Source: Candidatus Sulfopaludibacter sp. SbA3 (GTDB lineage: Bacteria > Acidobacteriota > Terriglobia > Bryobacterales > Bryobacteraceae). From it: a stretch of DNA of 64,000 bases. Positions 19,771-32,195 of the stretch are shown piece by piece. The stretch spans positions 124,001-188,000 of the forward strand of contig CAMDCN010000002.1 of NCBI GenBank assembly GCA_945890485.1, written 5' to 3'. A program made the translations under genes and the position numbers. Within the stretch, counting starts at the first letter, position 1. Each line of letters starts with the position of its first letter. The notes under the pieces are model-generated. The model was not told the origin of the DNA and ran no database searches. It saw only the letters and a program-made list of their open reading frames with translations.

Positions 19771-20000
19771 AACGCAAGTCGATTACTCGCCGCGGCCCAC
19801 CAGGATCATCGAGACCGGGACGGCTCCCATTTTCCGCATCAGGACCCAGTCGTGCTCGCCTTGCTTCTCGATCTGGCCTTCCTTGAAGTATTTCGGATCC
19901 TCTTTCCAGATACTGAAAACCGCCGGATGGGGCGTGCCGGAAGCCTTGCGGCTTAGGGTCAACAGCGCATCGAAGGTGGGCGCGGAGCCGCCCTCGGTGT
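19771..20000. other. Switch point of strand-wide GC skew
   Basis: Left of here the + strand is C-rich in genes of both orientations (for example 30 C to 12 G in 13201-13260, inside a minus-strand gene). Right of here it is G-rich in genes of both orientations (9 C to 35 G in 24721-24780; 11 C to 26 G in 60001-60060, inside a minus-strand gene). By counting lines the change falls between about 19860 and 19980. It contains no AT-rich tract or clear DnaA boxes. Confidence 0.55.
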
Positions 20001-20418
20001 CACCAGCGGCTTGAACCAACAGCAGGAAGTCGCGCTGGGGGGCTGCCCCCTGATGGGTTCCATTTTCGGGGAAGTAGCTGTACCGCATCGTGTAGGTGCC
20101 GGGCTGCACGGTTTGGCCGCGGCGGTCTTCATGCTTCTGCGCGAACTGAATCACCGCGAGCAGGGAGCCGTGGGGGACGTTGGGCATCGTTAAGTTCGCT
20201 TCGGCGCTCGCAGGACCGGCGGGGACCTCGGCGCGATACCAGACCTCGGCGAGCAACTGGCCGTCCTTCATCACCTTCGTGCCTTCCTTGTTCAACAACG
20301 CAGTGACACTGGGGGCGAGGTCGGCGGGCGGCGCTCCGCCGGGGGCGACCTTATAGTCGTCGGCGAGCAGGGCGGCGGCGGTGAGGAACAGGGTCAGGAT
20401 AGGTCGCATGGTTCTCAT
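19783..20418 (-). CDS. Secreted protein of unknown function
   Basis: 211 residues with a signal peptide (MRPILTLFLTAAALLA; an ATG at 20409 would start exactly there). The mature part is β-rich, with EVWYRAEVPAG, NVPHGSLLAVIQF and GTYTMRYSYFPENG, and closes HDWVLMRKMGAVPVSMILVG. The pattern suggests a periplasmic sandwich-fold protein of a kind common in Acidobacteria; I do not know its role. It is convergent with the dGTPase-like gene (12-base gap) and diverges from the response regulator at 20481. Confidence 0.75.
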   Translation of the reverse strand: MRTMRPILTLFLTAAALLADDYKVAPGGAPPADLAPSVTALLNKEGTKVMKDGQLLAEVWYRAEVPAGPASAEANLTMPNVPHGSLLAVIQFAQKHEDRRGQTVQPGTYTMRYSYFPENGTHQGAAPQRDFLLLVQAAGDTEGGSAPTFDALLTLSRKASGTPHPAVFSIWKEDPKYFKEGQIEKQGEHDWVLMRKMGAVPVSMILVGRGE

Positions 20419-20480: not shown

Positions 20481-21155
20481 ATGCAGACCATACTCGTAAT
20501 CGACGATGACGACAGCTTGCGAGACACGATCGGGCTGATGTTGGAGCAGGAATCGTTCCGGGTTCACCTCAGCGGAAACGGACGGGATGGCTACGAAAAG
20601 GCGCTGAGTCTACAGCCGGACCTGATTCTGGTGGATCTACGGTTGCCAGGGATGAGCGGCGTGGAGATCTGCCGCCAACTGCGCACGGACAAGGTGCAAA
20701 CTCCCATTATTGTACTGAGCGCGCTGGGCGATGAAATCGACAAGGTGTTGCTGCTCGAGATTGGCGCCGACGATTATGTCGTGAAACCGTTCGGGCGGCG
20801 CGAACTGATCGCGCGGATCCGGGCGCTGCTGCGGCGGAGCGGGGGCGAGGCGCACCACGTTTTAAAATTCTCCGATACCGAAGTGAACATCGAGCGGCGA
20901 ATGGTGGAGCGCGCGGGGCAGGAGGTGAAACTGACTCCGGCGGAGTACAGTTTGCTCGTGTTCTTCCTGCAGAATCCGGACCGGCCGTTGACGCGGGACG
21001 TGATACTGAACTCGGTCTGGGGGTACAACTCGTTTCCGCATACGCGGACAGTGGACGCCCACATCGTGAAGCTGCGGCAAAAATTTGAGGCAGACCCGGC
21101 CATTCCGCGCCATTTCCTGACCGTTCACGGGGTCGGCTACCGGTTTCTGCCATGA
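20481..21155 (+). CDS. OmpR/PhoB-family response regulator
   Basis: 224 residues. The receiver (1-118) has the acidic triplet IDDDDS, the phospho-acceptor Asp in LILVDLRLPGMSG and the conserved Lys in YVVKPFGRREL. The DNA-binding winged helix (about 128-222) shows LTPAEYSLLVFFL, VILNSVWGY and TVDAHIVKLRQKFE. It is the first gene of a long array. Its kinase is probably the one at 23384-24976, four genes downstream. A TACAAT near 20460 could be a -10 element, but no clear Shine-Dalgarno precedes the ATG. Confidence 0.93.
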   Translation: MQTILVIDDDDSLRDTIGLMLEQESFRVHLSGNGRDGYEKALSLQPDLILVDLRLPGMSGVEICRQLRTDKVQTPIIVLSALGDEIDKVLLLEIGADDYVVKPFGRRELIARIRALLRRSGGEAHHVLKFSDTEVNIERRMVERAGQEVKLTPAEYSLLVFFLQNPDRPLTRDVILNSVWGYNSFPHTRTVDAHIVKLRQKFEADPAIPRHFLTVHGVGYRFLP

Positions 21156-21490
21156 GGTGGACGGTGCTGGTGGTGGAAGATAACCGGGCGCTGGCGGATA
21201 CGCTGGCCGTGGCGCTGGGGCTGCTGCCGGATACGGAAGTGCTGGTGGCTTACGACGGGGCGGAGGGCCGGAAGCTGCTGCCGCAGGCGGACGCTTTGTG
21301 CACCGATCTCGATTTGCCGCGGGTGCACGGCGAAGTCCTGATCCGGGAGTTCCGGGCGCTGAAGCCGGGGGCGCCGGTGATCGCAATGTCGGCGGGGCCG
21401 GGCGAACGGGCGGGGGCGGATCGATTTTTCCCGAAGCCGTACTCGACGCTGGTGGTGCGGGAAACCTTGAAGGGGATGCTTTATGGGTAA
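21152..21490 (+). CDS. Stand-alone receiver-domain protein
   Basis: 112 residues, receiver only. The acidic pair is VVEDN, the acceptor Asp lies in LCTDLDLPRVHG and the Lys in FFPKPYS, so phosphorylation chemistry looks intact. There is no output domain. The ATG overlaps the preceding regulator stop (ATGA) and its own end overlaps the porin start by eight bases. Such proteins work as phosphate shuttles, sinks or protein-contact regulators, probably under the sensor kinase encoded in the same array. Confidence 0.88.
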   Translation: MRWTVLVVEDNRALADTLAVALGLLPDTEVLVAYDGAEGRKLLPQADALCTDLDLPRVHGEVLIREFRALKPGAPVIAMSAGPGERAGADRFFPKPYSTLVVRETLKGMLYG

Positions 21491-22730
21491 GTGGCTGTTG
21501 GTTTTTTGTCTTCCGGTGCTGAGTTGGGGGCAGGCGGATATTCTGGCGCGGCTCGAAAAGCTGGAGGCGGAGAACGCGAAGCTGCGCGGTGAGGTAGCCG
21601 AGCTGCGGGCGAAGGTGGACCAATTGGTGCCGGAACGGCTGGAGATCGCCGAACGCCGGATTGAGGAGCAGGCCCAGACCAAGGTGGAGGCGGCGAGTAA
21701 GTTCCCGGTGGAGCTGTCAGGGATGGCGCTTTTCAACGTGTTCGTGAATACCAAGGGCGCGGGGGGCGTGGACACGCCGAACCAGGCGAGCGCGGGGCTG
21801 GACCGGCGGGCCGGTGGGCTCTCGTTTCGGCAGTCAATTGTGGGGCTGCGGTTTCATGGGCCGGTGACATTTTTCGGCGCCAAGGTTTCCGGCGAGGCCT
21901 ACGGCGACTTCTGGGACGGGACGACGGAAGGGACGGGGAACCTGGCGTTCCGGCTGCGGACAGCGGAGGCGCGCCTCGATTGGGAGCGGCGGTCGGTCTC
22001 GATCGGGCTCATGAAACCGCTGATTTCGCCGCGGAACCCGACCTCGTTTGCAACGATGGGCGTGACGCCTCTGACGAGCTCCGGGAACTTGTGGCGCTGG
22101 CAGCCGCAGGTTCGGTACGAGGAACGGGTCGGGGAGTTTAAGCTGCAAGGGGCATTGATGCAGACTTCGGAGCAGTCGGGAACGCCGAATGTCGCGCTGG
22201 TGGCTCTGCGGCGGCCCTCGCTCGAACTGCGGGGGGCCTGGGGCCGGGGAGAGCGGTTTGAGTTTGGCGTGGGCGGGCACGTTTCGACTTCGCATGTCTC
22301 GGGGCAGAGCGTGCCGTCGCGGATTGTCAGCGTTGATTGGCTCGCGACGCCTTGGGAAAAGCTGGAGCTGTCCGGGTTCCTTTTTAACGGGGAGAACGTT
22401 CACCATTTGGGCTCGCTGCGGCAGAGCTTCCGCTTCTTGGCGGATGGACGGGTGTTGGCGGTGCGGAGTAAGGGGGGATGGGCGCAGGCGGCGGTGCCGC
22501 TGACGGGGCGCGTGACGGTAAACCTGTTTGGAGGCATTCATGACGACCGGGACTCCGACTTGGTGCGGGGGCAGAACGGACGGAACCGGGCGGGCGGCGC
22601 GAACGTGATGGTGCGGGTGGCGCCGAACGTGGTGTTGGGCTTTGAGGGGCTGCAGATCCGTTCGAACTTCCTGGGGACGGGGGAGAGGAGGGTGAATCGG
22701 TATGATCTTTCGCTGGCTTATATTTTTTAG
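21483..22730 (+). CDS. Porin-like outer-membrane β-barrel with N-terminal coiled coil
   Basis: 415 residues. Signal peptide (1-17, after SWG), then a heptad stretch (about 20-75; ILARLEKLEAENAKLRGEVAEL) and a β-barrel with alternating aromatic strands ending in LSLAYIF, a typical outer-membrane C-terminal Phe. The coiled-coil-then-barrel plan resembles phosphate-selective (OprP/DcaP-like) porins, in which an N-terminal helix aids trimerisation or peptidoglycan contact. It should provide substrate entry for the ABC importer encoded downstream. It overlaps both neighbouring genes. Confidence 0.8.
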   Translation: MGKWLLVFCLPVLSWGQADILARLEKLEAENAKLRGEVAELRAKVDQLVPERLEIAERRIEEQAQTKVEAASKFPVELSGMALFNVFVNTKGAGGVDTPNQASAGLDRRAGGLSFRQSIVGLRFHGPVTFFGAKVSGEAYGDFWDGTTEGTGNLAFRLRTAEARLDWERRSVSIGLMKPLISPRNPTSFATMGVTPLTSSGNLWRWQPQVRYEERVGEFKLQGALMQTSEQSGTPNVALVALRRPSLELRGAWGRGERFEFGVGGHVSTSHVSGQSVPSRIVSVDWLATPWEKLELSGFLFNGENVHHLGSLRQSFRFLADGRVLAVRSKGGWAQAAVPLTGRVTVNLFGGIHDDRDSDLVRGQNGRNRAGGANVMVRVAPNVVLGFEGLQIRSNFLGTGERRVNRYDLSLAYIF

Positions 22731-23382
22731 CTGCTGGCCAGCGCTGGCGGCCACGGTGGGAGGCACCGTGGAGCTGACGCAGGCGAAGAGCAAAAGTTGG
22801 GACGGGGTGGTGGTCTGGCTGGAGCCCATCGGCGGGAAGCCGCCGTTGACGCCTGTGCGGTTCACGCTCGATCAGAAGAATAAGAAGTTCGCCCCGCATG
22901 TACTGGCCGTTCCGGTGGGCGCGACGGTGGACTTTCCGAACCACGACCCAATTTTTCATAACGCATTTTCAAATTTCGCCGGGCAACCGTTTGACACGGG
23001 GTTGTATGCCCCGGGGACGTCGCAGAGGATTACGTTCCGGCGGGAGGGGTTCGTGCGGGTGTTCTGCAACATCCACGCGAACATGAGCGCCGTGATTGTG
23101 GTGGTGCCAACGCCGTACTATGCGGTCTCGCTCGCCAATGGGACTTGGCAGATTCCGAACGTGCCGCCGGGGGAGTACCGGCTGCGGCTGTTCCATGAAC
23201 GGGCGACGGAGGAGACGCTGCGGAAGCTGGAGATGCGCGTGAAGGTGGGGGATGGGATGATGACGATGCCTCGGCTGGCGGTATCGGAGTCGGGGTATTT
23301 GCAGGTGCCGCATCAGAATAAGCATGGCCGGCCGTATCCGGCTAAACCGCAGGAGAGTGGGCTGTACATAGGGGGTAAGTGA
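22702..23382 (+). CDS. Secreted cupredoxin-domain copper protein
   Basis: 226 residues with a signal peptide (1-16). A plastocyanin/amicyanin-like fold is shown by the copper ligands: His in PNHDPIFHNAF (about 80-90) and the compact FCNIHANM (CxxHxxM, as in amicyanin; about 121-128). A second β domain follows (NVPPGEYRLRLFHER), like a carboxypeptidase-regulatory repeat. It is probably a periplasmic electron carrier or copper-binding protein, which is notable in an array ending with the SoxCD pair. Its start overlaps the porin gene by 29 bases, and the next gene begins one base after its stop. Confidence 0.82.
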   Translation: MIFRWLIFFSCWPALAATVGGTVELTQAKSKSWDGVVVWLEPIGGKPPLTPVRFTLDQKNKKFAPHVLAVPVGATVDFPNHDPIFHNAFSNFAGQPFDTGLYAPGTSQRITFRREGFVRVFCNIHANMSAVIVVVPTPYYAVSLANGTWQIPNVPPGEYRLRLFHERATEETLRKLEMRVKVGDGMMTMPRLAVSESGYLQVPHQNKHGRPYPAKPQESGLYIGGK

Positions 23383-23383
23383 G

Positions 23384-24976
23384 ATGTCCCTCCGTTGGAA
23401 GATCTGGCTGGCGGTGTTTGGCAGTGTGACGCTGCTGTTCGGGGTGACGGGGTGGATTCTGCAGCGGCACGCGATCGACAGCGCGACGCGATCGCTCGAA
23501 GAAGAGATGCGAGGGAGTGTACGGGCTTACGAGACCGTATGGCAGGCGCGGCAGGAGGGGTTGGGCACTGCGGCCCTGTTGCTGAGCAGTTTGCCGAATG
23601 TGCGGGCGGCGTTTGGCACGCAGGACGCGGCGACGGTTCGGGACTCGGCGGCGGAGTTGCGGGGGCTTTTGTCGGAAGGGTTGCGGACGCGGTCGTTCTT
23701 CGTGGTCTGCGATCCGCGGGGCGGGCCGATTGCAACGATTGCGGGGGAACCGCCGGCGATGGGGACCTGGCCAACTGTAGAGGCCGGGGTGCGGCAGAAG
23801 TCAGGATTCTTCGTGAGGGGGCGGGAGATTTATCAGTTGGTGTTGACCCCGGTGATGGTGGATTCGGCACGCGGACCGGCGATGATCAGCTTGCTGGTGG
23901 CTGGGTACGCCGAAGGGGAGCGGCCGGAGCAGTTGACGGGGGGCGAGTTTGTATTTTCGGTGGCGGGAGAGAAGGTGGATCGGCCGGGGGTGCGGCTGGA
24001 CCGGCCGTTGTTGGGCCTGGAAGGGCAGCCAGTGGGGACGTTGAGCATCTTCCGGACTCCGGGGCCGGCGGAGCGGGAGTTAGAGGATTTGCAGAAGGAA
24101 CTGATTTGGATGTGGGCGGCGGCGATGGGGCTGAGCGTGGTGTTGAGCTTTTTTCTCGCGCGGCGGATCGTGGAGCCGATCGGGGCGCTGGACCGGGCGG
24201 CCACGGCGATTGGCGAGCAGCGATACGGGGAGCGGTTGCCGGTGACGAGTAACGATGAGCTGGGACGGTTGGCGGCGACCTTTAACTCGATGAGCGAGAG
24301 CTTGGAGGCGGCGCGGGGGGAGCTAATCCGGCAGGAGCGGATCTCAACGGTGGGGCGGATGGCGTCGAGCATTGTCCATGATTTGCGGAATCCGCTGGCG
24401 GCGATCTATGGCGGCGCGGAGATGTTGATTGACTCCGACAATCTAGCGCCGGCGCAGACGAAGCGGTTGGCCGGGAATATTTATTCGGCGAGCCGGAGAG
24501 TATTGGAGATGCTGCAGGAGTTGCTGGACGCGGCGAAGGGGAAGACGGGGGAGTTCGAAGTTTGCCGGTTGCGCGAGGTGGTGGACGCAGCGGTGGAGAG
24601 CCAGGAGACGGAGCATATCCGGTTCCGCGTGGAGATTCCGGAGGAGTTGGAGCTGCCGATGGATCGGGCGCGGATGGAGCGGGTATTCGTAAATCTGCTG
24701 GCGAATGCGATTGAGGTGATGCCGGAGGGGGGTGAGGTCGCCGTGGTGGCACGGGCGGAGGGGAAAGGCGTGGTGGTAGAGGTGCGGGATCAGGGGCCTG
24801 GGATTGCCGAAGAGGTTCGGGGACGGTTGTTTCAGCCGTTCACGAGCTTTGGGAAGCGGAACGGATTGGGGCTGGGATTGGCGCTGAGCCGGCAGACGGT
24901 GTTGGAGCATGGCGGGGACCTGACGGCGGCGAATGCGCCGGGCGGGGCGGTGTTTTCGGTGAAGCTCCATGGATGA
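23384..24976 (+). CDS. Membrane sensor histidine kinase (HAMP, HisKA, HATPase)
   Basis: 530 residues. TM1 at about 7-25, a ~200-residue extracytoplasmic sensor, and TM2 at about 243-263 (LIWMWAAAMGLSVVLSFFLA). HAMP follows (about 264-315; RRIVEPIGALDRAA), then HisKA with the phospho-His in SSIVHDLRNPLAA (about 330), then HATPase with NLLANAIEV (N box), DQGPGIAEE (G1) and GLGLGLALSR (G2). It should sense a periplasmic signal and phosphorylate the OmpR-type regulator and possibly the lone receiver of the same array. The sensor part has no family I can name. Its last codons overlap the permease start by 8 bases. Confidence 0.92.
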   Translation: MSLRWKIWLAVFGSVTLLFGVTGWILQRHAIDSATRSLEEEMRGSVRAYETVWQARQEGLGTAALLLSSLPNVRAAFGTQDAATVRDSAAELRGLLSEGLRTRSFFVVCDPRGGPIATIAGEPPAMGTWPTVEAGVRQKSGFFVRGREIYQLVLTPVMVDSARGPAMISLLVAGYAEGERPEQLTGGEFVFSVAGEKVDRPGVRLDRPLLGLEGQPVGTLSIFRTPGPAERELEDLQKELIWMWAAAMGLSVVLSFFLARRIVEPIGALDRAATAIGEQRYGERLPVTSNDELGRLAATFNSMSESLEAARGELIRQERISTVGRMASSIVHDLRNPLAAIYGGAEMLIDSDNLAPAQTKRLAGNIYSASRRVLEMLQELLDAAKGKTGEFEVCRLREVVDAAVESQETEHIRFRVEIPEELELPMDRARMERVFVNLLANAIEVMPEGGEVAVVARAEGKGVVVEVRDQGPGIAEEVRGRLFQPFTSFGKRNGLGLGLALSRQTVLEHGGDLTAANAPGGAVFSVKLHG

Positions 24977-25613
24977 GATCTGGGGGGCAGTCGGGTTTTC
25001 GTTATGGGTGGCGGGGGCGTCTACCTTGTTGGCCTTGGCAACGGGTATTTTCTTCGCGGTTCGGGGGACGAAGGTGATGTGGCAGGTGCCGTTGGCGATG
25101 CCGCATTTAACGATGGCGGTAGTGGTGCTGCACCTGTTGGCTCCGAGCGGGTTGGTGGCGCGGGTGGTCTACGGGATGGGCGGGATTGGGGGGCCGGGGG
25201 AGTTTCCGGATGTGGTGCAGGACCGGTGGGGACTGGGAATTGTGTTGGTTTATTGGATCAAGGAGACGCCGTTTTTCGCGTTGTTGGCCAGGACGGTATT
25301 GGAGCGATTGAGCGGGGAATATGACGCCGTGGCGGCCACCTTGGGGGCGGGGCGATGGCAGCGATTCCGGTATGTGACCGGGCCGCTATTGCTACCGGCT
25401 TTGGGGCCGGCGGTGGTGCTGGTGTTTGGGTTCGTTTTCGCGAGTTTTGATGTGGCGTTTCTTCTGGGGCGGACCTATCCGGCGATGCTGAGCGTGGTGG
25501 CGCAGCGGTACTTCGTGAGTGACCGGGAGACGGCGCTGGCGATTTCGGCAGGGATGGGTCTGTTCAGCGCGGCGCTGGCTTGGGGATACGTGAGGCTGCG
25601 GACGCAATGGTGA
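24969..25613 (+). CDS. ABC transporter permease, first half of a YnjC-like pair
   Basis: 214 residues with about six transmembrane segments. The cytoplasmic coupling loop (EAA-type) is DAVAATLGAGRWQRFRYV at about 119-136. It overlaps the sensor kinase gene by 8 bases and the second permease by 7. The substrate-binding protein downstream looks like YnjB, whose E. coli partner YnjC is one long two-domain permease; here that permease is split into two genes. It forms the importer channel in the inner membrane. Confidence 0.88.
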   Translation: MDEIWGAVGFSLWVAGASTLLALATGIFFAVRGTKVMWQVPLAMPHLTMAVVVLHLLAPSGLVARVVYGMGGIGGPGEFPDVVQDRWGLGIVLVYWIKETPFFALLARTVLERLSGEYDAVAATLGAGRWQRFRYVTGPLLLPALGPAVVLVFGFVFASFDVAFLLGRTYPAMLSVVAQRYFVSDRETALAISAGMGLFSAALAWGYVRLRTQW

Positions 25614-26311
25614 GGTGGCTGGTTTGGTTGCCGGTTTTGTTTCTACTGGTGAGGAGCCTGGCGACTCGCTGGTTCTGGCCGACGGTGTGGCCGGGGGAGT
25701 GGAGCGAGCGGGCGTGGGGGGCCGTGCGGGGGGAGCCGGTTTGGAATTCGTTGACGTTGGCTTTGGCGGTGATGGCCGGGGCCGTGGTAATCGCTGTTCT
25801 GCTGGCGGGTTCGTTCCGGCGGAGCGGATGGGTTCGGTGGGGGGTCATGACGCTGGCGTTGCTGCCTCCGCTGGCGGCAAGCGTAGGGCTCCATGGGCTG
25901 TTCCTGCGGTTGGGATGGACCGATTCGTGGTGGGGGGTGGCGCTGGTGCATCTCATTCCGGCGACGCCGTATGCGGTGATGGCGGTGGCGGGGAGTCTGT
26001 CGCGGTTTGACGAAGACCTGGTGGCGCAGGCGCGGACGTTGGGGGCGGGGCGGTGGGCGATCTGGCGGTATGTGAAAGGGCCAGCGCTGGCGCCGGGGTT
26101 GGCGACGGGGGCAGTATTTGCGTTCGTGGTTTCGTGGAGCCAATACGTCTCGACGGCGTTGATTGGCGGGGGGCGGGTGGTAACGTTGCCGATGGCGCTG
26201 GTGGGGTATCAGCAGAGCGGGGACGAGGCGGTGGCGGCGGCGGTGAGTCTGGTGTTTCTGGGGGCTCCGGTTATGCTTTCTGTATGGGTCGAGCGTGGCT
26301 GGGAATCTTAG
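25607..26311 (+). CDS. ABC transporter permease, second half of a YnjC-like pair
   Basis: 234 residues from the ATG at 25607 (MVRWLVWLPVLFLLV), which overlaps the previous stop by 7 bases; an upstream start would run deep into that gene. Six hydrophobic segments and the EAA-type loop DLVAQARTLGAGRWAIWRYV. It pairs with the preceding permease, and together they match the two halves of YnjC. The next gene starts 28 bases before this stop. Confidence 0.88.
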   Translation: MVRWLVWLPVLFLLVRSLATRWFWPTVWPGEWSERAWGAVRGEPVWNSLTLALAVMAGAVVIAVLLAGSFRRSGWVRWGVMTLALLPPLAASVGLHGLFLRLGWTDSWWGVALVHLIPATPYAVMAVAGSLSRFDEDLVAQARTLGAGRWAIWRYVKGPALAPGLATGAVFAFVVSWSQYVSTALIGGGRVVTLPMALVGYQQSGDEAVAAAVSLVFLGAPVMLSVWVERGWES

Positions 26312-27336
26312 TACTGCTGGCGGGGTGTGCGAAGCCGCGCGAAGTGAGCTTTGCGATGTGGGCGGGGGATGAGGCGCGGAACCGGTATTTCGAAACCGTG
26401 GTGCGGGAGGAGGTTCGGGCCAAGCACGGGCTGGAACTACGGATTGTGCCGTATGGGCATACGGGCGAGGTGGTGAGTAAGCTTGTGACGGAGAAGGGCG
26501 CGGGGAAAACGACCGGGGGAAGTGTCGACGTGGTTTGGATCAACGGGGAGAATTTCCGGGCGGCGAAGAAGGCGGGGGTTTTGTGGGGGCCGATTGAGAT
26601 GCCGCGGCTTTATCCGGCCGAGGCGTACGAGAAAGATTTCGGGACGCCGATTGAGGGGATGGAGACGCCTTGGCAGAACGCGCAGTTTGTGATGGCCTGG
26701 GATACGGCGCGGTTTGCAGAGCCGCCGCGGACGTTGGATGGTTTGATGGCATGGGTGAAGGCGCATCCGGGGCGGTTCACGTACCCGGCTCCGCCGGAGT
26801 TTTCGGGGAGCGTGTTTACGCGGCATTTTCTGTTGGGGAAAGGGTTTGATGGTGGGCTGGCGGCTCTGCGGGAGATGAAGCCCTATCTGTGGAAGCAGGG
26901 CGAGACGTACCCGGCGACGATTGCCGAGTTGGACCGGCTGTTCGCGAACAATGAGATCGACTTCGCAATGAGCTACGGGCCTAGCTTTGCGAGTGAACGG
27001 ATTGCGCGGGGAACATTTCCGAATACCGTGCGGACGTTCGTTTTTGATAGCGGGACGATTGGGAATTTTAACTATCTAGCGGTGCCGTTCAATGCGAACG
27101 ACCGGCAGGCCGCGCTGACGTTGATCCGGGATTTGACGTCGCGGGAGCGGTTGCTGGATATGGCGCGGAAGCTGGGGAACACGTTTCCGCAGGTGGGGCC
27201 GGATCCGGGTTTGGAGCGGGGGGTAGCGACGTTGCCGCTGGAGTTGCTGCGGGCGAAGTTTCTGCCGGAACCGGATGCGGATGATCTGGTTCGTTTCGAG
27301 AAGGCTTGGCGGGAACGGGTGTTGTTGGGGAGATGA
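26284..27336 (+). CDS. ABC transporter substrate-binding lipoprotein (YnjB-like)
   Basis: 350 residues from the ATG at 26284, chosen because it gives an immediate lipoprotein signal (MGRAWLGILVLLAGC, Cys at 15). The mature protein has the periplasmic binding fold. GSVDVVWINGENFRAAK (about 80-96) is the most telling stretch and fits the uncharacterised YnjB family; PWQNAQFVMAWDTARF and AMSYGPSFASER follow. It captures the substrate for the two permeases. The ligand is unknown; related proteins bind thiamine, iron or polyamines. It overlaps the permease upstream by 28 bases and the ATPase gene by four (ATGA). Confidence 0.85.
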   Translation: MGRAWLGILVLLAGCAKPREVSFAMWAGDEARNRYFETVVREEVRAKHGLELRIVPYGHTGEVVSKLVTEKGAGKTTGGSVDVVWINGENFRAAKKAGVLWGPIEMPRLYPAEAYEKDFGTPIEGMETPWQNAQFVMAWDTARFAEPPRTLDGLMAWVKAHPGRFTYPAPPEFSGSVFTRHFLLGKGFDGGLAALREMKPYLWKQGETYPATIAELDRLFANNEIDFAMSYGPSFASERIARGTFPNTVRTFVFDSGTIGNFNYLAVPFNANDRQAALTLIRDLTSRERLLDMARKLGNTFPQVGPDPGLERGVATLPLELLRAKFLPEPDADDLVRFEKAWRERVLLGR

Positions 27337-28244
27337 CGAAGGTCGAAGTGGTGGGGGTGAAAGCGGGGTATGGCTCGTTGGTGTTGCGCGAGGTGTCCGC
27401 GGAGTTCCGCGCGGGAGAGTTGACGGCAGTGCTGGGGCCTTCGGGGTGCGGGAAGACGACGCTGTTGAAAGTGGTGGCTGGGCTGTTGGCGGCGGAAGGG
27501 CAAGTGCTGTTTGACGGGGAGGAGATGGGCGGGGTGGCGGCGGAGCGGCGGGAAGTGGCGATGGTATTTCAGAAGCCGCTGTTGTTTCCCCATCTGGACG
27601 TGCGGGGCAACGTCGAGTTTGGGCTGAAGATGCGGGGACGAGCGGGCGATGTGGCGGGGATGATGGAGATGGTGGGGGTGGGGGAGTTAGCGGGGCGAAA
27701 AGTGGGGACGCTGTCCGGCGGGCAGGAGCAGCGGGTGGCGTTGGCTAGAGCACTGGTAACGCGGCCTCGGGTGCTGTTGCTGGACGAGCCGTTTTCGGCG
27801 TTGGACGAGGCGTTGCGGGGAGAGATGCGGGGGTTGGTGCGGCGGCTGCAACGGGAGTTGCGGACGACGACGGTGTTCGTGACGCATGACCAGGAGGAGG
27901 CGTCGCTGGTGGCGGACCGGATCGTGCTGCTGCTGGAGGGGAAGGTGGAGCAGGCGGGGACGGCGGGGGAACTTTATGGCCGACCGGCGACGGCCGCGGC
28001 GGCACGTTTCTTTGGGTGGCAGGTGCTGCGGGACGGGCGGGCGTTCCGGCCGGAGGAGGCGCGGTTAGGCGCGGCGGAAGGATTGGCCGGGGAAGTGAAA
28101 GACGTGGTGCGGTGGGCACGGGGGACACGGTATACGGTGGGGTTGGAGACGGGGGAAACGGTGACGGTGGATGAGGCGGGGTATGCGGCGGAGCGGCGGG
28201 GGCCGGTGAGAGTGGAGCTTTTGCGATATCTTGAGTTTTCATGA
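27333..28244 (+). CDS. ABC transporter ATP-binding protein (YnjD-like)
   Basis: 303 residues from the ATG in the ATGA overlap. Walker A GPSGCGKTT (about 34-42), signature LSGGQEQR (about 129-136), Walker B VLLLDEP (about 148-154) and the switch His in FVTHDQEE. A ~70-residue C-terminal extension resembles a TOBE-like regulatory domain (EVKDVVRWARGTRYTVGLETGE), typical of CUT1/molybdate/thiamine-type importers. It powers the importer made by the three preceding genes. Its last base pairs overlap the sulfatase start. Confidence 0.92.
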   Translation: MTKVEVVGVKAGYGSLVLREVSAEFRAGELTAVLGPSGCGKTTLLKVVAGLLAAEGQVLFDGEEMGGVAAERREVAMVFQKPLLFPHLDVRGNVEFGLKMRGRAGDVAGMMEMVGVGELAGRKVGTLSGGQEQRVALARALVTRPRVLLLDEPFSALDEALRGEMRGLVRRLQRELRTTTVFVTHDQEEASLVADRIVLLLEGKVEQAGTAGELYGRPATAAAARFFGWQVLRDGRAFRPEEARLGAAEGLAGEVKDVVRWARGTRYTVGLETGETVTVDEAGYAAERRGPVRVELLRYLEFS

Positions 28245-29713
28245 TGACTCGACGGGGATTTCTGAGCGCGGCGGCGGCTGCGATGACGGCGGGGGCGCAA
28301 ACAGCGAAGCGGCCGAACATACTGTTCATCATCTTCGACGACTGGGGCTACGGGCACGCGAGCGCGTACGGGGCCAAGTGGGTGAAGACCCCGGGCTTCG
28401 ACCGGGTGGCGAAAGAGGGCGCGTTGTTCACGCACGCCTTTACGTCGAACCCGAAGTGCAGCCCCTGCCGGGCGACGATTCTGACGGGACGGAACTCCTG
28501 GCAGACGAAAGAAGCCGTGAGCCATTTCAGCTTGTTTCCCAATGAATTCGCGGTGTACCCGGCGGAGCTCGAGAAGGCCGGATACTTTGTAGGGCTGACG
28601 GGCAAGGGCTGGGGGCCGGGGGACTTCCTGTCGACGGGGTGGAAACATAACCCAGCCGGGAAGAGTTACGACACGAAGAAGACGAAGCCGCCGTTTTCGG
28701 GCATGGGGCTGAACGACTACGCGGCCAACTTCGACGACTTTCTGAGCCAGCGGCCGAAGGACACGCCGTTCTGTTTTTGGATGGGGTTCCAGGAGCCGCA
28801 CCGGGTGTATGAAGACGGATCGGGCGTGCGGAGCGGGAAGAAGCTCGAAGACGTGACGGTGCCGGCTTACTATCCCGACGTGAAAACGGTGCGGAGCGAC
28901 ATGCTCGACTATGCCGTGGAAGTAGAGTACGCGGACGCGCACATCACGCGAGCGCTGGATAAGCTGGCGGCGATGGGAGAGCTGGAGAACACGCTGGTGA
29001 TTGCAACCTCCGACCACGGGATGCCGTTTCCGCGGGTGAAGGGCCAGGTCTATGAAGACGGATTCCATATCCCGCTGGCCATCCGGTGGGGCAACGCGAT
29101 GAAGGGAGGGCGGACCATCAACGATTTCATCACCACGCGGGACTTCGCGCCGACAATTCTTGAAGCCGCGGGGGTGAAGGCGGGGGAGACGTTTACGGGG
29201 AAGAGCTTTGTTGATGTGTTGAAGAGTGGCAAAGAGGGCGTCGTGGACCCCTCGCGGGAGTTCGTGTTGGTGGCCAAGGAGCGGCACGACATCGGACGGC
29301 CGAACGACGCGGGGTATCCGGTGCGGGCGATCCGAACGCGGCAGTATCTGTACATTCGAAACTACACCCCGGACGTGTGGCCGGCGGGGATGCCGCAGAC
29401 GGGGTATCGGGATGTCGACGATAGCCCGACGAAGACCTTGTTGATTTCGAGTTTCGACCAGTACTACCGGATGTCGTTTGGGAAGCGTGCAGCGGAGGAG
29501 CTTTACGACATTGAAGCCGATCCGGGCTGTATGAAGAATCTGTTCGCGGAGCCGTCGATGACGATGGTGAAGCGAAATTTGCGGGACAAGATGGAGAAGG
29601 TATTAAAGGACGAGGGCGATCCGCGAATGAACGGGAACGCAGCGTTTTTCGATACTATCCAATACGTAGGTCCGAAGAAGCATTCTTACGAGACCTGGCT
29701 GAAGAACCAGTAG
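28241..29713 (+). CDS. Tat-exported type I sulfatase (Cys-type)
   Basis: 490 residues. Twin-arginine signal TRRGFLSAAAAAM (about 3-15) cleaved near AGA-QT. The alkaline-phosphatase-like sulfatase fold begins FIIFDDWGYGHASAYG (metal-binding Asp-Asp), followed by the formylglycine site CSPCRATILTGR (Cys to be oxidised, C-x-P-x-R), then TSDHGMPFPR with further metal ligands. The layout resembles heparan N-sulfatase-like enzymes. It should cleave sulfate esters or sulfamates outside the cytoplasm. It overlaps the ABC ATPase gene by four bases and is followed after 8 bases by the SoxC gene, so substrate import, desulfation and sulfur oxidation are physically linked. Confidence 0.9.
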   Translation: MMTRRGFLSAAAAAMTAGAQTAKRPNILFIIFDDWGYGHASAYGAKWVKTPGFDRVAKEGALFTHAFTSNPKCSPCRATILTGRNSWQTKEAVSHFSLFPNEFAVYPAELEKAGYFVGLTGKGWGPGDFLSTGWKHNPAGKSYDTKKTKPPFSGMGLNDYAANFDDFLSQRPKDTPFCFWMGFQEPHRVYEDGSGVRSGKKLEDVTVPAYYPDVKTVRSDMLDYAVEVEYADAHITRALDKLAAMGELENTLVIATSDHGMPFPRVKGQVYEDGFHIPLAIRWGNAMKGGRTINDFITTRDFAPTILEAAGVKAGETFTGKSFVDVLKSGKEGVVDPSREFVLVAKERHDIGRPNDAGYPVRAIRTRQYLYIRNYTPDVWPAGMPQTGYRDVDDSPTKTLLISSFDQYYRMSFGKRAAEELYDIEADPGCMKNLFAEPSMTMVKRNLRDKMEKVLKDEGDPRMNGNAAFFDTIQYVGPKKHSYETWLKNQ

Positions 29714-29721
29714 GAGAGGAC

Positions 29722-30900
29722 ATGGCAGACCGGCGAGCATTCTTGGGGTTAGCGGCAGTGTTGACGGCTTGTACGAAGTCGTCGAAGGCGCCGAGCGTAG
29801 TGGAGCAGAGCATGGCTCCCTATGGCGAACGGGCCGCGACGGAGACGATTGCGCGGACCGCGACCGAGCGGACGGCAAGCGTGGGCGTGGGGTCGAGCAC
29901 GACTCCGCTGCAGGAGCTGCACGGGGTGATTACGCCGTCGGCGCTGCACTTTGAACGGCACCATGCGGGGATTCCGAAGATTGATCCGGCGAAGCATACG
30001 CTGCTGGTGCACGGGCTGGTGGACCAGCCGATGGAGTTTACGCTCGACGATTTGAAGCGGTTGCCGACGGTGACGCGGACGCACTTCATCGAGTGTTCGG
30101 GGAACGGCGGCGCGGAGTTGCGCGGGATTGCAGGTGGAACGGTGGAGAAGAGCCACGGGCTGCTGAGTTGTTCGGAATGGACGGGGGTGCCTCTGAAGGT
30201 GCTGCTCGAACAGGCGGGCGTGAAGCCGGAGGCGAAGTGGGTGATCGCCGAAGGAGCGGACGCGTGCCGGATGGCGCGGAGCATTCCGATGGCGAAGTGT
30301 ATGGAAGACGCGCTGGTGGTCTATGGGCAGAATGGCGAGGCGCTGCGGCCGGGGCAGGGGTATCCGCTGCGGCTGCTGTTGCCAGGGTTTGAAGGCAATT
30401 CGAGCGTGAAGTGGCTGGAGCGGCTGCACGTGACGGAAGAGCCGGCGCAAACGAACCAGGAGACGGCGCACTATACGGACCTGCTGCCGGACGGGAAGGC
30501 GCGGCAGTTTTCGTTTGTGATGGACACGAATTCGGTGATCACGCGGCCGTCGGGCGGGCAAAAGATCGCGGGCGGCGCCGGGTTTGTCGAGATCAGCGGG
30601 ATTGCGTGGACCGGGAACGGAAAGATCAAGCGCGTCGAGGTTTCGACCGACGGCGGGAAGACCTGGGTGGATGCAGCGCTCGAAGAGCCGGTGCTTTCGC
30701 GGAGCCTGGTGCGTTTCCGGGCGCCTTGGGTTTGGGACGGGAAGGATGCCGTGATTCAGTCGCGGGCGACGGATGAGACGGGCTACCTGCAGCCGACGCG
30801 GGACGAGATTGTGGAGGCGCGCGGGATGAACAGCCAGTACCACTATCACGGGGTGAAACCGTGGGCGGTGAAGGCCGATGGGAGTGTTACGAATGTTTAG
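29722..30900 (+). CDS. soxC: Sulfur-oxidising molybdopterin enzyme (SoxC / sulfite dehydrogenase type)
   Basis: 392 residues. The signal combines a twin arginine (DRRAFLGLAA) with a lipobox (VLTAC, Cys17), so it could be a Tat-exported lipoprotein. The sulfite-oxidase fold carries the molybdenum-binding Cys in THFIECSGNGGAE (about 116-128), and the C-terminal dimerisation domain begins near ITRPSGGQKI. The best match by feel is SoxC, the sulfane dehydrogenase molybdoprotein, which normally works with the dihaem cytochrome SoxD. A cytochrome gene overlaps its end by eight bases. No other sox genes (XYZ, A, B) are in the window. Confidence 0.87.
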   Translation: MADRRAFLGLAAVLTACTKSSKAPSVVEQSMAPYGERAATETIARTATERTASVGVGSSTTPLQELHGVITPSALHFERHHAGIPKIDPAKHTLLVHGLVDQPMEFTLDDLKRLPTVTRTHFIECSGNGGAELRGIAGGTVEKSHGLLSCSEWTGVPLKVLLEQAGVKPEAKWVIAEGADACRMARSIPMAKCMEDALVVYGQNGEALRPGQGYPLRLLLPGFEGNSSVKWLERLHVTEEPAQTNQETAHYTDLLPDGKARQFSFVMDTNSVITRPSGGQKIAGGAGFVEISGIAWTGNGKIKRVEVSTDGGKTWVDAALEEPVLSRSLVRFRAPWVWDGKDAVIQSRATDETGYLQPTRDEIVEARGMNSQYHYHGVKPWAVKADGSVTNV

Positions 30901-31423
30901 GATCGTGTTATTGCTTTGCGCGGTGAGCGCGTTTGGACAGACGAAGTATCCGGGCGTGGGGAAGCCGGCTGCGGCCGAACGCGTGAAGGCCGCGGACAAG
31001 ACCGTGATGGCGGACGGGCGCGGATTGCCAGCCGGGAAAGGAAATGTGGAGATGGGCCGAGGGCTGTATAAGACCCATTGCGCCGAGTGCCACAACGAAG
31101 CGGGCGAGGGCCGGGATAAGCAGTGGCCCGCGTTGGTGGGGGGCACGGGGACGTTGGCGACGAAGTCGGCGAAGAAGACGGTGGGCAGTTACTGGCCGTA
31201 TGCGACGACGGTGTGGGATACGATTGCGCGGTCGATGCCGTATAACAACCCGGGGACTTTGAAGGCCGATGAGGTGTATGCGATTACGGCGTTTGTGCTG
31301 CATTTGAATGGGATTGTGCCGGCAGGGCAGGAGTTGGACGAGAAATCGCTGCCGCAGGTGAAGATGCCGAATCGGGATGGGTTTATTCCGACGGTGCATC
31401 CGGATGTGAAGGCTAAGCGGTAG
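30893..31423 (+). CDS. c-type cytochrome, SoxD-like partner
   Basis: 176 residues from the ATG at 30893, chosen for GGGAG 8 bases upstream. Signal peptide (1-16, after AFG). One haem site, THCAECHNEAGEG (about 57-69), and a C-terminal axial Met candidate in ARSMPYNNPGTL. The long stretch MPYNNPGTLKADEVYAITAF is typical of SoxD-type cytochromes. It should accept electrons from the preceding molybdoenzyme in the periplasm and pass them to the respiratory chain, perhaps through the cupredoxin of the same array. Classical SoxD carries two haem domains; here only one is present. Confidence 0.85.
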   Translation: MFRIVLLLCAVSAFGQTKYPGVGKPAAAERVKAADKTVMADGRGLPAGKGNVEMGRGLYKTHCAECHNEAGEGRDKQWPALVGGTGTLATKSAKKTVGSYWPYATTVWDTIARSMPYNNPGTLKADEVYAITAFVLHLNGIVPAGQELDEKSLPQVKMPNRDGFIPTVHPDVKAKR

Positions 31424-31427
31424 GGAG

Positions 31428-32195
31428 ATGAAGCCGGCGCTGCTGGCGCTGTTGTTCACCGGTGGAGCCTGGGCTCAGGCTCTGCCGGTGGTTCCGTTCC
31501 GGTTGGATCCGGAACAGGTGTTGCGGAGTTTGCGGGACCGCAGGCCGGTTATGTCCGAGTCGGAGTGCGGTGCTTTGGCCCTTTCCGGGTGCCGCTCGGA
31601 AGAGCCAACGCGGATTCGAGGCATCTCGCTGCGATGGGTGCAACTCGACACAGACGAACAGCTCGAGGCGATCCTAGTCTTGACGGGCGAAGCGGAAGAT
31701 TCTCATATCGCCTACGTGTTTGACCGCCAAGCGCAATGGAATCTCATTGGATCTTTCGAGTGCCGACGACATCGATGCGAGTTAGATCGGATGGTCCGGG
31801 TTCAGCAACTTACCAAGGACGCTCCGCCGTTGCTGTTTTGCTATCGCGATCGGGGAGGGAGCGGCACGGTTAACTGGTACAACGAGAGCTTTCACCTCCG
31901 CGCGGGGCGATTGTGGCCTTCGTTTCAGGTGATCACGTATGAATACATGCCCTTTCGCGGACCATACTCGCTAGTTCGGCGGGTCCGGGCGTCCGATGAC
32001 CGCCTTGTGATCCACACGATTCGGGAGCAGCCGCCGGGAACGAAACCACAGCATTCCTGCGAGGTATTGCGATGGGACGCGGAGAGGTTCACCTATCGCC
32101 CAGTCGCCGCGGAACAAGCGAAATACTGCGATAGCCGGAACGGACAGCCGCTGGCGGATAAATCCTTCCCTGCTGTCCTCTCCCTACTTCGGTAG
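31428..32195 (+). CDS. Secreted protein of unknown function
   Basis: 255 residues with a signal peptide (1-16, after AWA). It is Cys-containing (pairs in ESECGALALSGC and FECRRHRCELD suggest disulfides) and β-rich. GSGTVNWYNESFHLRAGRLW and FQVITYEY point to a single periplasmic β domain. No family is recognised. GGGAG precedes the ATG, which lies 4 bases after the cytochrome stop, so it may be the last gene of the sulfur array. Its base composition is milder than that of the genes before it (less extreme G preference), which may mean a different history. Confidence 0.72.
   Translation: MKPALLALLFTGGAWAQALPVVPFRLDPEQVLRSLRDRRPVMSESECGALALSGCRSEEPTRIRGISLRWVQLDTDEQLEAILVLTGEAEDSHIAYVFDRQAQWNLIGSFECRRHRCELDRMVRVQQLTKDAPPLLFCYRDRGGSGTVNWYNESFHLRAGRLWPSFQVITYEYMPFRGPYSLVRRVRASDDRLVIHTIREQPPGTKPQHSCEVLRWDAERFTYRPVAAEQAKYCDSRNGQPLADKSFPAVLSLLR

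Follow-up and report, generated by a model that had tools for sequence, protein, structure and literature searches.

A twelve-gene array in Candidatus Sulfopaludibacter joins a conserved cupredoxin-kinase sensing module to an importer, a sulfatase and a SoxC/SoxD-type pair

The stretch analyzed here, referred to as the window, comprises 64,000 nucleotides from Candidatus Sulfopaludibacter sp. SbA3 (Bryobacteraceae, Acidobacteriota; assembly GCA_945890485.1, contig CAMDCN010000002.1, positions 124,001 to 188,000), whose genome of 7.13 Mb holds it on its contig 2. Between positions 20481 and 31423, twelve plus-strand genes follow one another in an unbroken run, hereafter the array, whose junctions are overlaps or gaps of 8 or 1 bases. 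The first five genes encode a sensing module and the following seven, hereafter the cargo, a YnjBCD-type importer, a sulfatase and a SoxC/SoxD-type pair. A first-pass annotation, made from the sequence without database searches, had described eleven genes and a largest gap of 8 bases. The same-strand run and the widest junction, 8 bases between the sulfatase gene and soxC, hold up, while the count has to be raised to twelve by a stand-alone receiver gene (21152-21490) that had gone unnamed.

The array opens with an OmpR-family response regulator (20481-21155; PF00072, 101.1 bits; PF00486, 90.4 bits), next to which lies the stand-alone receiver (PF00072, 41.1 bits, cut-off 30.2). The fifth gene (23384-24976) encodes a membrane histidine kinase with HAMP, HisKA and HATPase domains, and the Pfam matches confirm the combination of OmpR regulator and HAMP kinase that had been read from the sequence. 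A Cache-type periplasmic region is assigned to this kinase from its homologues, 14 of 16 of which match dCache_3 (PF14827) at E <= 0.1; the domain is undetected in the window's own kinase, and an AlphaFold model of its N-terminal part, built on a 3-row alignment, reached a predicted local distance difference test (pLDDT) score of 41.9, too poor for a fold search. CusRS and CopRS likewise pair an OmpR-type regulator with a membrane HAMP kinase. The array differs from them in its regulator, which stays below the heavy-metal models, in a sensor that is Cache-like in homologues, and in the cupredoxin and barrel-like genes built into it. Assignment of the regulator to the copper/heavy-metal OmpR type was rejected on the scores for TIGR01387 (163.7 of 279.2 bits) and NF007346 (140.6 of 420); indeed, of 95 NCBIfam models, it reaches the cut-off of none of the 25 listed.

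Between receiver and kinase lie the genes for two secreted proteins. The product of 21483-22730, with an N-terminal coiled coil and a C-terminal F, is a putative outer-membrane barrel of an unnamed family. It had been read as an OprP-like barrel, which is not upheld: the Pfam matches of the window's copy are coiled coils only, no porin family appears among the 25 most-matched of 74 families in 17 homologues, and all 32 solved-structure matches to E 1 fall within the coiled-coil part. With neither a porin family nor a solved porin matched, an OprP/OprO-type porin was rejected; the AlphaFold model (3-row alignment, pLDDT 32.6) was again too poor for a fold search. The second protein (22702-23382) is a cupredoxin with a carboxypeptidase-regulatory-like tail, whose predicted copper ligands H86, C122, H125 and M128 do not vary in any of 18 sequences compared and which gives weak profile matches to the solved blue-copper chains 6hbe and 5fc9 (E 2.2e-4 and 1.1e-3). 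From the proposed amicyanin-like copper site, the CxxHxxM motif is indeed present at residue 122, whereas the amicyanin (mau) context is missing, as no methylamine dehydrogenase genes occur in the cluster or beside the annotated proteobacterial relatives examined.

The cargo begins with two ATP-binding cassette (ABC) permeases of 214 amino acids (24969-25613; PF00528, 34.6 bits, cut-off 26.4) and 234 amino acids (25607-26311, with the start ATG at 25607 taken from the sequence; PF00528, 52.6 bits). They are followed by a YnjB-family substrate-binding protein (26284-27336, start likewise taken from the sequence), a lipoprotein as judged by eye from its LAGC motif, and by an ABC ATPase (27333-28244, start from the translation; PF00005, 123.3 bits). 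At 309.9 bits, the binding protein lies well over the NF008633 cut-off of 203, in agreement with the YnjBCD importer named at first pass. The sulfatase gene (28241-29713) encodes a protein with PF00884 (128.8 bits) and a CSPCR sequence at residue 73, and this combination with the CxPxR motif predicts an S1 formylglycine sulfatase, as had been proposed; the best solved match is the S1_8A sulfatase 9bb9 (E 1.8e-32). Its N-terminus, MMTRRGFLS..., reads by eye as a signal for twin-arginine translocation (Tat). The same applies to the N-terminus MADRRAFLGLAAVLTAC... of the next product (29722-30900), a SoxC-type molybdenum sulfite/sulfane dehydrogenase subunit (TIGR04555, 546.8 bits, cut-off 420), with 2xts_A as closest solved relative (E 1.5e-106) and a SorA match at 9e-31. 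The last gene (30878-31423) encodes a monoheme SoxD-like cytochrome c (2xts_B, E 7.8e-39), which begins with a signal peptide recognizable by eye. The SoxC-SoxD pairing read from the sequence is hence well founded.

Comparison with other genomes separates the two halves of the array. The cupredoxin is matched in 91 of 121 genomes of the family at E <= 0.001 and in 112 of 396 genomes of the phylum at E <= 1e-40. For the family, 56 of the 68 non-array places with a cupredoxin at E <= 2e-55 were examined, hereafter the module loci. In all 56, the CxxHxxM motif is present and the kinase gene follows the cupredoxin gene; a barrel-like gene precedes the latter in 54, the remaining two stopping at a contig edge, and the regulator and receiver homologues are found nearby in 45 and 44, respectively. 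The importer is absent from every one of them. Regulator, receiver, barrel-like protein, cupredoxin and Cache-HAMP kinase hence form a conserved five-gene module that is independent of the array. A further locus (L299 on G054:C7, cupredoxin E 4e-51) has the barrel homologue before the cupredoxin and no receptor directly after it, with regulator and kinase homologues lying divergently beside the barrel-cupredoxin pair, and is a rearranged module. Upstream of the array, a divergently transcribed gene (19783-20418, minus strand) encodes a secreted protein without Pfam match that is a frequent neighbor of the module: its homologue occurs in 15 of the 56 loci, on the opposite strand every time, and it also adjoins the module in seven of eight non-array loci of the genus.

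The complete array is a matter of one lineage. Among 19 genomes of the genus, 17 match the cupredoxin, the two others being 62% and 58% complete, and eight match the importer's binding protein. In these eight, the cupredoxin is at least 80% identical to that of the window, compared with 64-67% in the remaining nine. The array lies on a single contig in five genomes including the window's own (G000, G004, G127, G128, G130; the contig of G130 ends within the regulator gene), and in three more (G113, G121, G129) it is broken solely by contig ends between the kinase and second permease genes. Order is kept throughout at 73-100% protein identity, and junction lengths in the four other single-contig genomes are the same as in the window or nearly so; the exceptions are the junction of the permease genes, ranging from -34 to 194, and, in G128, a duplication ahead of the cupredoxin gene. 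The latter consists of extra barrel and cupredoxin gene fragments between the two genes, as from a partial duplication (L271 12841-13610). In G113 and G129, a GC-rich tandem repeat of 123-bp units lies between the permease genes, and the assemblies break there (L265 1-430, L047 10350-10653, L040 1-300). Because the break falls in this repeat and the importer contig of G129 holds the end of permease 1, adjacency is likely in these two genomes as well. Past the cytochrome gene, an open reading frame (ORF) only 4 bases away (31428-32195, plus strand) is unmatched in the relatives' loci searched and was excluded from the array; an Rfam search gave nothing above gathering scores.

Eight further loci of the genus, as well as G078, carry the module with no importer match; in locus L274, receiver and regulator lie past the contig end. 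In a tree of 22 kinases, from which G121 was omitted for its cut kinase gene, the array kinases, seven in number, group together as a clade (support 100/99) whose sister comprises nine non-array kinases of the genus. Since the importer is missing from all 56 module loci of the family, a gain of the cargo in the array clade would be a simpler reading than a loss in its sister. A unit of long standing is not supported. The first-pass annotation had named relatives of these genes in unrelated contexts as grounds for refutation, and this is largely what is found: module, soxCD, sulfatase and importer occur apart. The search it had proposed, for the same order in relatives, yields the eight genomes above; the combination is conserved in this one lineage and was not seen in other genera in the stretches examined. 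The sensing module is hence the conserved and more interesting element of the cluster, and the array a lineage-specific assembly of known parts.

Among these parts, the SoxC/SoxD-type pair is widespread. SoxC exceeds the TIGR04555 cut-off in 38 of the 121 family genomes, and in 60 of 61 soxC loci (two genomes counted twice, L042/L046 and L040/L047, and one locus from a Myxococcota metagenome-assembled genome, MAG) tblastn places soxD after it, the exception stopping at a contig edge. A single CxxCH motif is found in 61 of 61 homologous cytochrome ORFs, that of the window included. In a neighbor survey of 53 loci, in which the ORF picker recovered soxD in 43, one other family reaches at least 5 loci, namely a common TonB-type family, which is seen in 8 loci and lies within 2.5 kb in two of them. 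As noted at first pass, the classical Sox genes are missing as far as SoxY is concerned: PF13501 is matched in 0 of 121 family genomes, the window's own among them, with Sinorhizobium meliloti pSymA as positive control (91 bits). None of soxX, soxA and soxB is among the genes of the cluster; no genome-wide search was made for them. Within the model's ability to detect SoxY, the SoxCD of this family therefore cannot act on SoxY-bound sulfur, and membership of the array in the Sox system was rejected even though its SoxC passes the subunit model. The nearest solved relatives of both proteins remain those of Paracoccus pantotrophus SoxCD (PDB 2xts), from which the array differs by the lack of soxXYZAB among its genes and by its monoheme cytochrome; P. 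pantotrophus SoxD is diheme.

A SorA- or SorT-type sulfite dehydrogenase was likewise rejected, with 148.6 of 600 bits for the SorA model, 143 of 570 for SorT, and differing residues. Relative to the SorA residues R55, H57, R109, Y236 and R366, the window's SoxC keeps R79, H81, C125 and R348 as counterparts of R55, H57, the molybdenum-ligand cysteine and R366. Across 62 SoxC-like ORFs, R stands in the R109 column in three and Y in the Y236 column in three. At this place, the SoxC proteins of the six array genomes in the alignment read EGNSSVKW, where the others differ. A divergent SoxC-like group (L093-L097, 42-48% identity) still has the cytochrome gene alongside; its five ORFs have A in the R55-equivalent column and changed pocket residues. 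A precedent within the same family is the Bryobacteraceae MAG CO124, for which passages of PMC10564751 (PubMed Central, PMC) describe SoxC/SoxD-like genes without soxABYZ, state their role as unknown, and mention no sensing module, importer or sulfatase alongside.

The sulfatase has orthologues at 60-70% identity in other genera, and no neighbor recurs in at least 4 of the 19 usable loci (20 fetched, 19 anchored). With 50 sulfatase-family matches in the window's own genome (G000, 7.1 Mb), some of which are pieces of one frame, a clustered sulfatase is not remarkable by itself. The importer is rarer: its binding protein is matched in 7 of the 121 family genomes, and the NF008633 cut-off is passed in 6 of the 396 phylum genomes. 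Neighbors of YnjB importers in four other loci of the family and in annotated records differ from those in the array, and neither soxC nor an array-type cupredoxin lies beside them in the stretches examined by annotation or tblastn, which elsewhere in the phylum were 4-kb loci. Sulfurtransferase or rhodanese genes adjoin YnjB importers in E. coli, Klebsiella, Cetobacterium and Ilyobacter; L157, L161, L165 and L166 have them together with TVP38/TMEM64 or DedA genes. TVP38/TMEM64 and FAD-oxidoreductase genes are found near some YnjB importers, by eye in one acidobacterial locus (L307), six annotated records have CDP-alcohol phosphatidyltransferase genes as neighbors, and in L154 one sulfatase lies about 3 kb from the importer ATPase. 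These surroundings hint at sulfur chemistry and name no substrate. E. coli ynjBCD resembles the array importer in its grouping of binding protein, permease and ATPase, whereas the array has two separate permeases in place of one long YnjC, the order permease-permease-binding protein-ATPase, and neither an adjoining sulfurtransferase nor ydjXYZ, with no rhodanese in the cluster. In open-licence PubMed Central, no paper on ynjBCD as an ABC transporter was found, and the ynjB/ynjE literature matches listed there do not name ynjB.

On balance, we lean towards the reading that the ancestor of one clade appended the YnjBCD-type importer, the Tat sulfatase and the SoxC/SoxD-type pair to the sensing module, which would now control this sulfur cargo as one transcription unit. 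The secreted cupredoxin may report the periplasmic copper or redox state to the kinase, which would then activate the regulator, and the barrel would admit solutes. Because of the export signals recognized by eye, sulfatase, SoxC and cytochrome are expected to act outside the inner membrane, before import. Sulfate, the product of the sulfatase, is the most oxidized form of sulfur and cannot be oxidized further; hence, the only option for sulfatase and SoxCD is to act next to each other, with each enzyme using its own compound or its own group within a shared compound. Presumably, the periplasmic sulfatase frees sulfate from an organosulfate, in parallel to a SoxCD that would oxidize sulfite-level sulfur, in line with the sulfite oxidation by SoxCD stated in PMC5336275, and pass the electrons to its cytochrome, while the importer may take in a small product or a sulfur oxyanion. 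Several points weigh against this reading. At the positions of SorA R109 and Y236, SoxC carries G130 and S227, and with these two residues changed, sulfite is perhaps not its natural substrate. The SoxC-like gene of MAG CO124 was untranscribed in the describing study, according to the passages concerned (PMC10564751). A scan for transcription signals, uninformative at 1 promoter-like site versus 1.6 expected and 14 terminator-like sites versus 9.3 expected, placed neither promoter nor terminator in the array. Finally, the conserved order could reflect the short age of a single clade.

Another explanation is that a single ancestor acquired the cargo downstream of the module's promoter, with no functional connection to sensing. 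Such hitch-hiking would agree with an order kept within one lineage only and with the other contexts in which every part is found elsewhere. Yet, junction lengths, mostly overlaps, are preserved in four other array genomes at down to 73% protein identity, and the 123-bp repeat between the permease genes of two genomes has left the order intact, as far as contig ends tell; we consider this explanation improbable. A different emphasis would make the cluster mainly a copper or respiratory redox system, in which cupredoxin and SoxD-type cytochrome carry electrons, SoxCD protects against sulfite in the periplasm, and importer and sulfatase play a minor part as scavengers. The cupredoxin with its conserved CxxHxxM site, adjacent to the kinase in every one of the 56 module loci, speaks for it, as does the ability of SoxCD to oxidize sulfite reported in a passage of PMC5336275. 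With a regulator that falls short of the copper/heavy-metal models TIGR01387 and NF007346, and with no copper-efflux gene among the twelve, it appears unlikely nonetheless.

Least probable by far is the serial pathway that the first-pass annotation had drawn, in which a single sulfur compound would be sensed, pass the barrel and be imported, desulfated and oxidized, with electrons passing through cytochrome and cupredoxin. The array genomes of the genus do share a single order of all parts, and the sulfurtransferase and rhodanese genes beside YnjB importers in E. coli, Klebsiella, Cetobacterium and Ilyobacter would suit it. However, the export signals place sulfatase, SoxC and cytochrome ahead of import, sulfate cannot be oxidized, and the parts are found apart elsewhere, so that this sequence of steps is abandoned.

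Beyond the module, a wider pattern emerges from related cupredoxins. Of a second class within the family, with 19 places at E 5e-42 to 5e-30, 13 were examined, weaker matches (1e-29 to 1e-23) being left out. In all 13, the cupredoxin gene is directly followed by one for a membrane receptor, whose output domain is HD-GYP in 7 loci and HisKA in 6, and then by a gene for a secreted protein of 353-475 amino acids that is barrel-like at best. One such pair, with HD-GYP output, lies in the window's own genome (L280, G000:C5:337000-348000). On proteobacterial plasmids, each of the 5 loci examined has a related cupredoxin directly before a dCache_3-HAMP-GGDEF-EAL protein. These pairs share with the array the position of the cupredoxin before a Cache-HAMP receptor, and differ from it in having GGDEF-EAL output where the array has a kinase, no regulator, an outer-membrane-type protein of another family and, in three loci, a truncated hemoglobin. 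The periplasmic parts of the receptors match across the classes by profile comparison (E 9.6e-14, 4.9e-10 and 6.5e-7), while a control with the cupredoxin alignment gave 0.2% probability.

The proteobacterial cupredoxin is annotated as 'methylamine utilization protein' in three loci. A DUF3034 gene and the truncated hemoglobin accompany it in three of four annotated loci (in one of these three on the other strand), the fourth having a DUF4394 gene; on the Caballeronia plasmids L167 and L301, the set reads DUF3034, truncated hemoglobin, cupredoxin, GGDEF/EAL. The globin in these sets suggests a link to gas or redox state.

These neighborhoods suggest that the cupredoxin is the input of the adjoining receptor, a role that is supported and unproven. 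More tentatively, and with somewhat more doubt than confidence, a general architecture may be proposed in which a secreted blue-copper protein serves a Cache-HAMP receptor as its dedicated periplasmic input, together with an outer-membrane-type partner and an exchangeable output (histidine kinase, HD-GYP or GGDEF-EAL). The cupredoxin would be a signal carrier that docks to report copper or redox state and no electron shuttle, and in the window's clade this device would have been wired to a periplasmic sulfur-oxidizing and uptake cargo.

A number of observations count against so broad a view. The barrel call for the third genes of the second class is based on length, signal peptides seen by eye and weak Pfam matches in 2 of 6 scanned. 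The sensor profile, applied to the window's own genome, matches the window's kinase alone, and the second-class sensors are linked to it by profile comparison only. The proteobacterial pairs come from plasmid records only, of which 5 of 13 were examined, 9 of the 13 being from Caballeronia. The window's cupredoxin matches 54 plasmid records, 33 of them from Sinorhizobium, and the one S. meliloti locus examined has no receptor, the cupredoxin being adjoined by an SCO-family gene and a metallophosphoesterase. Six distant loci (L281, L294-L298; E 1e-16 to 1e-18) have CxxHxxM and no adjoining receptor; in L298, the second gene beyond the cupredoxin has a kinase domain. A second His motif occurs in 48 of 56 module loci and 13 of 13 second-class loci, in 2 of 5 proteobacterial ones and in 1 of 7 others, the seven including L299; because of the 2 of 5, ligand conservation in the proteobacterial proteins is unsettled.

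Cupredoxins are known mainly as electron carriers. Among titles and abstract beginnings in open-licence PubMed Central, no description of a cupredoxin-coupled receptor system was found, PMC11904497 contains none of the terms bearing on such an arrangement, and passages of PMC3770913 treat globins and cyclic di-GMP genes. If the proposed role is correct, cupredoxins of Acidobacteriota and some Proteobacteria would have a second role as inputs to receptors. For the Bryobacteraceae, the cluster would provide a regulated context for a SoxCD that lacks SoxY; in a relative, the role of this enzyme is given as unknown in the passages concerned (PMC10564751).

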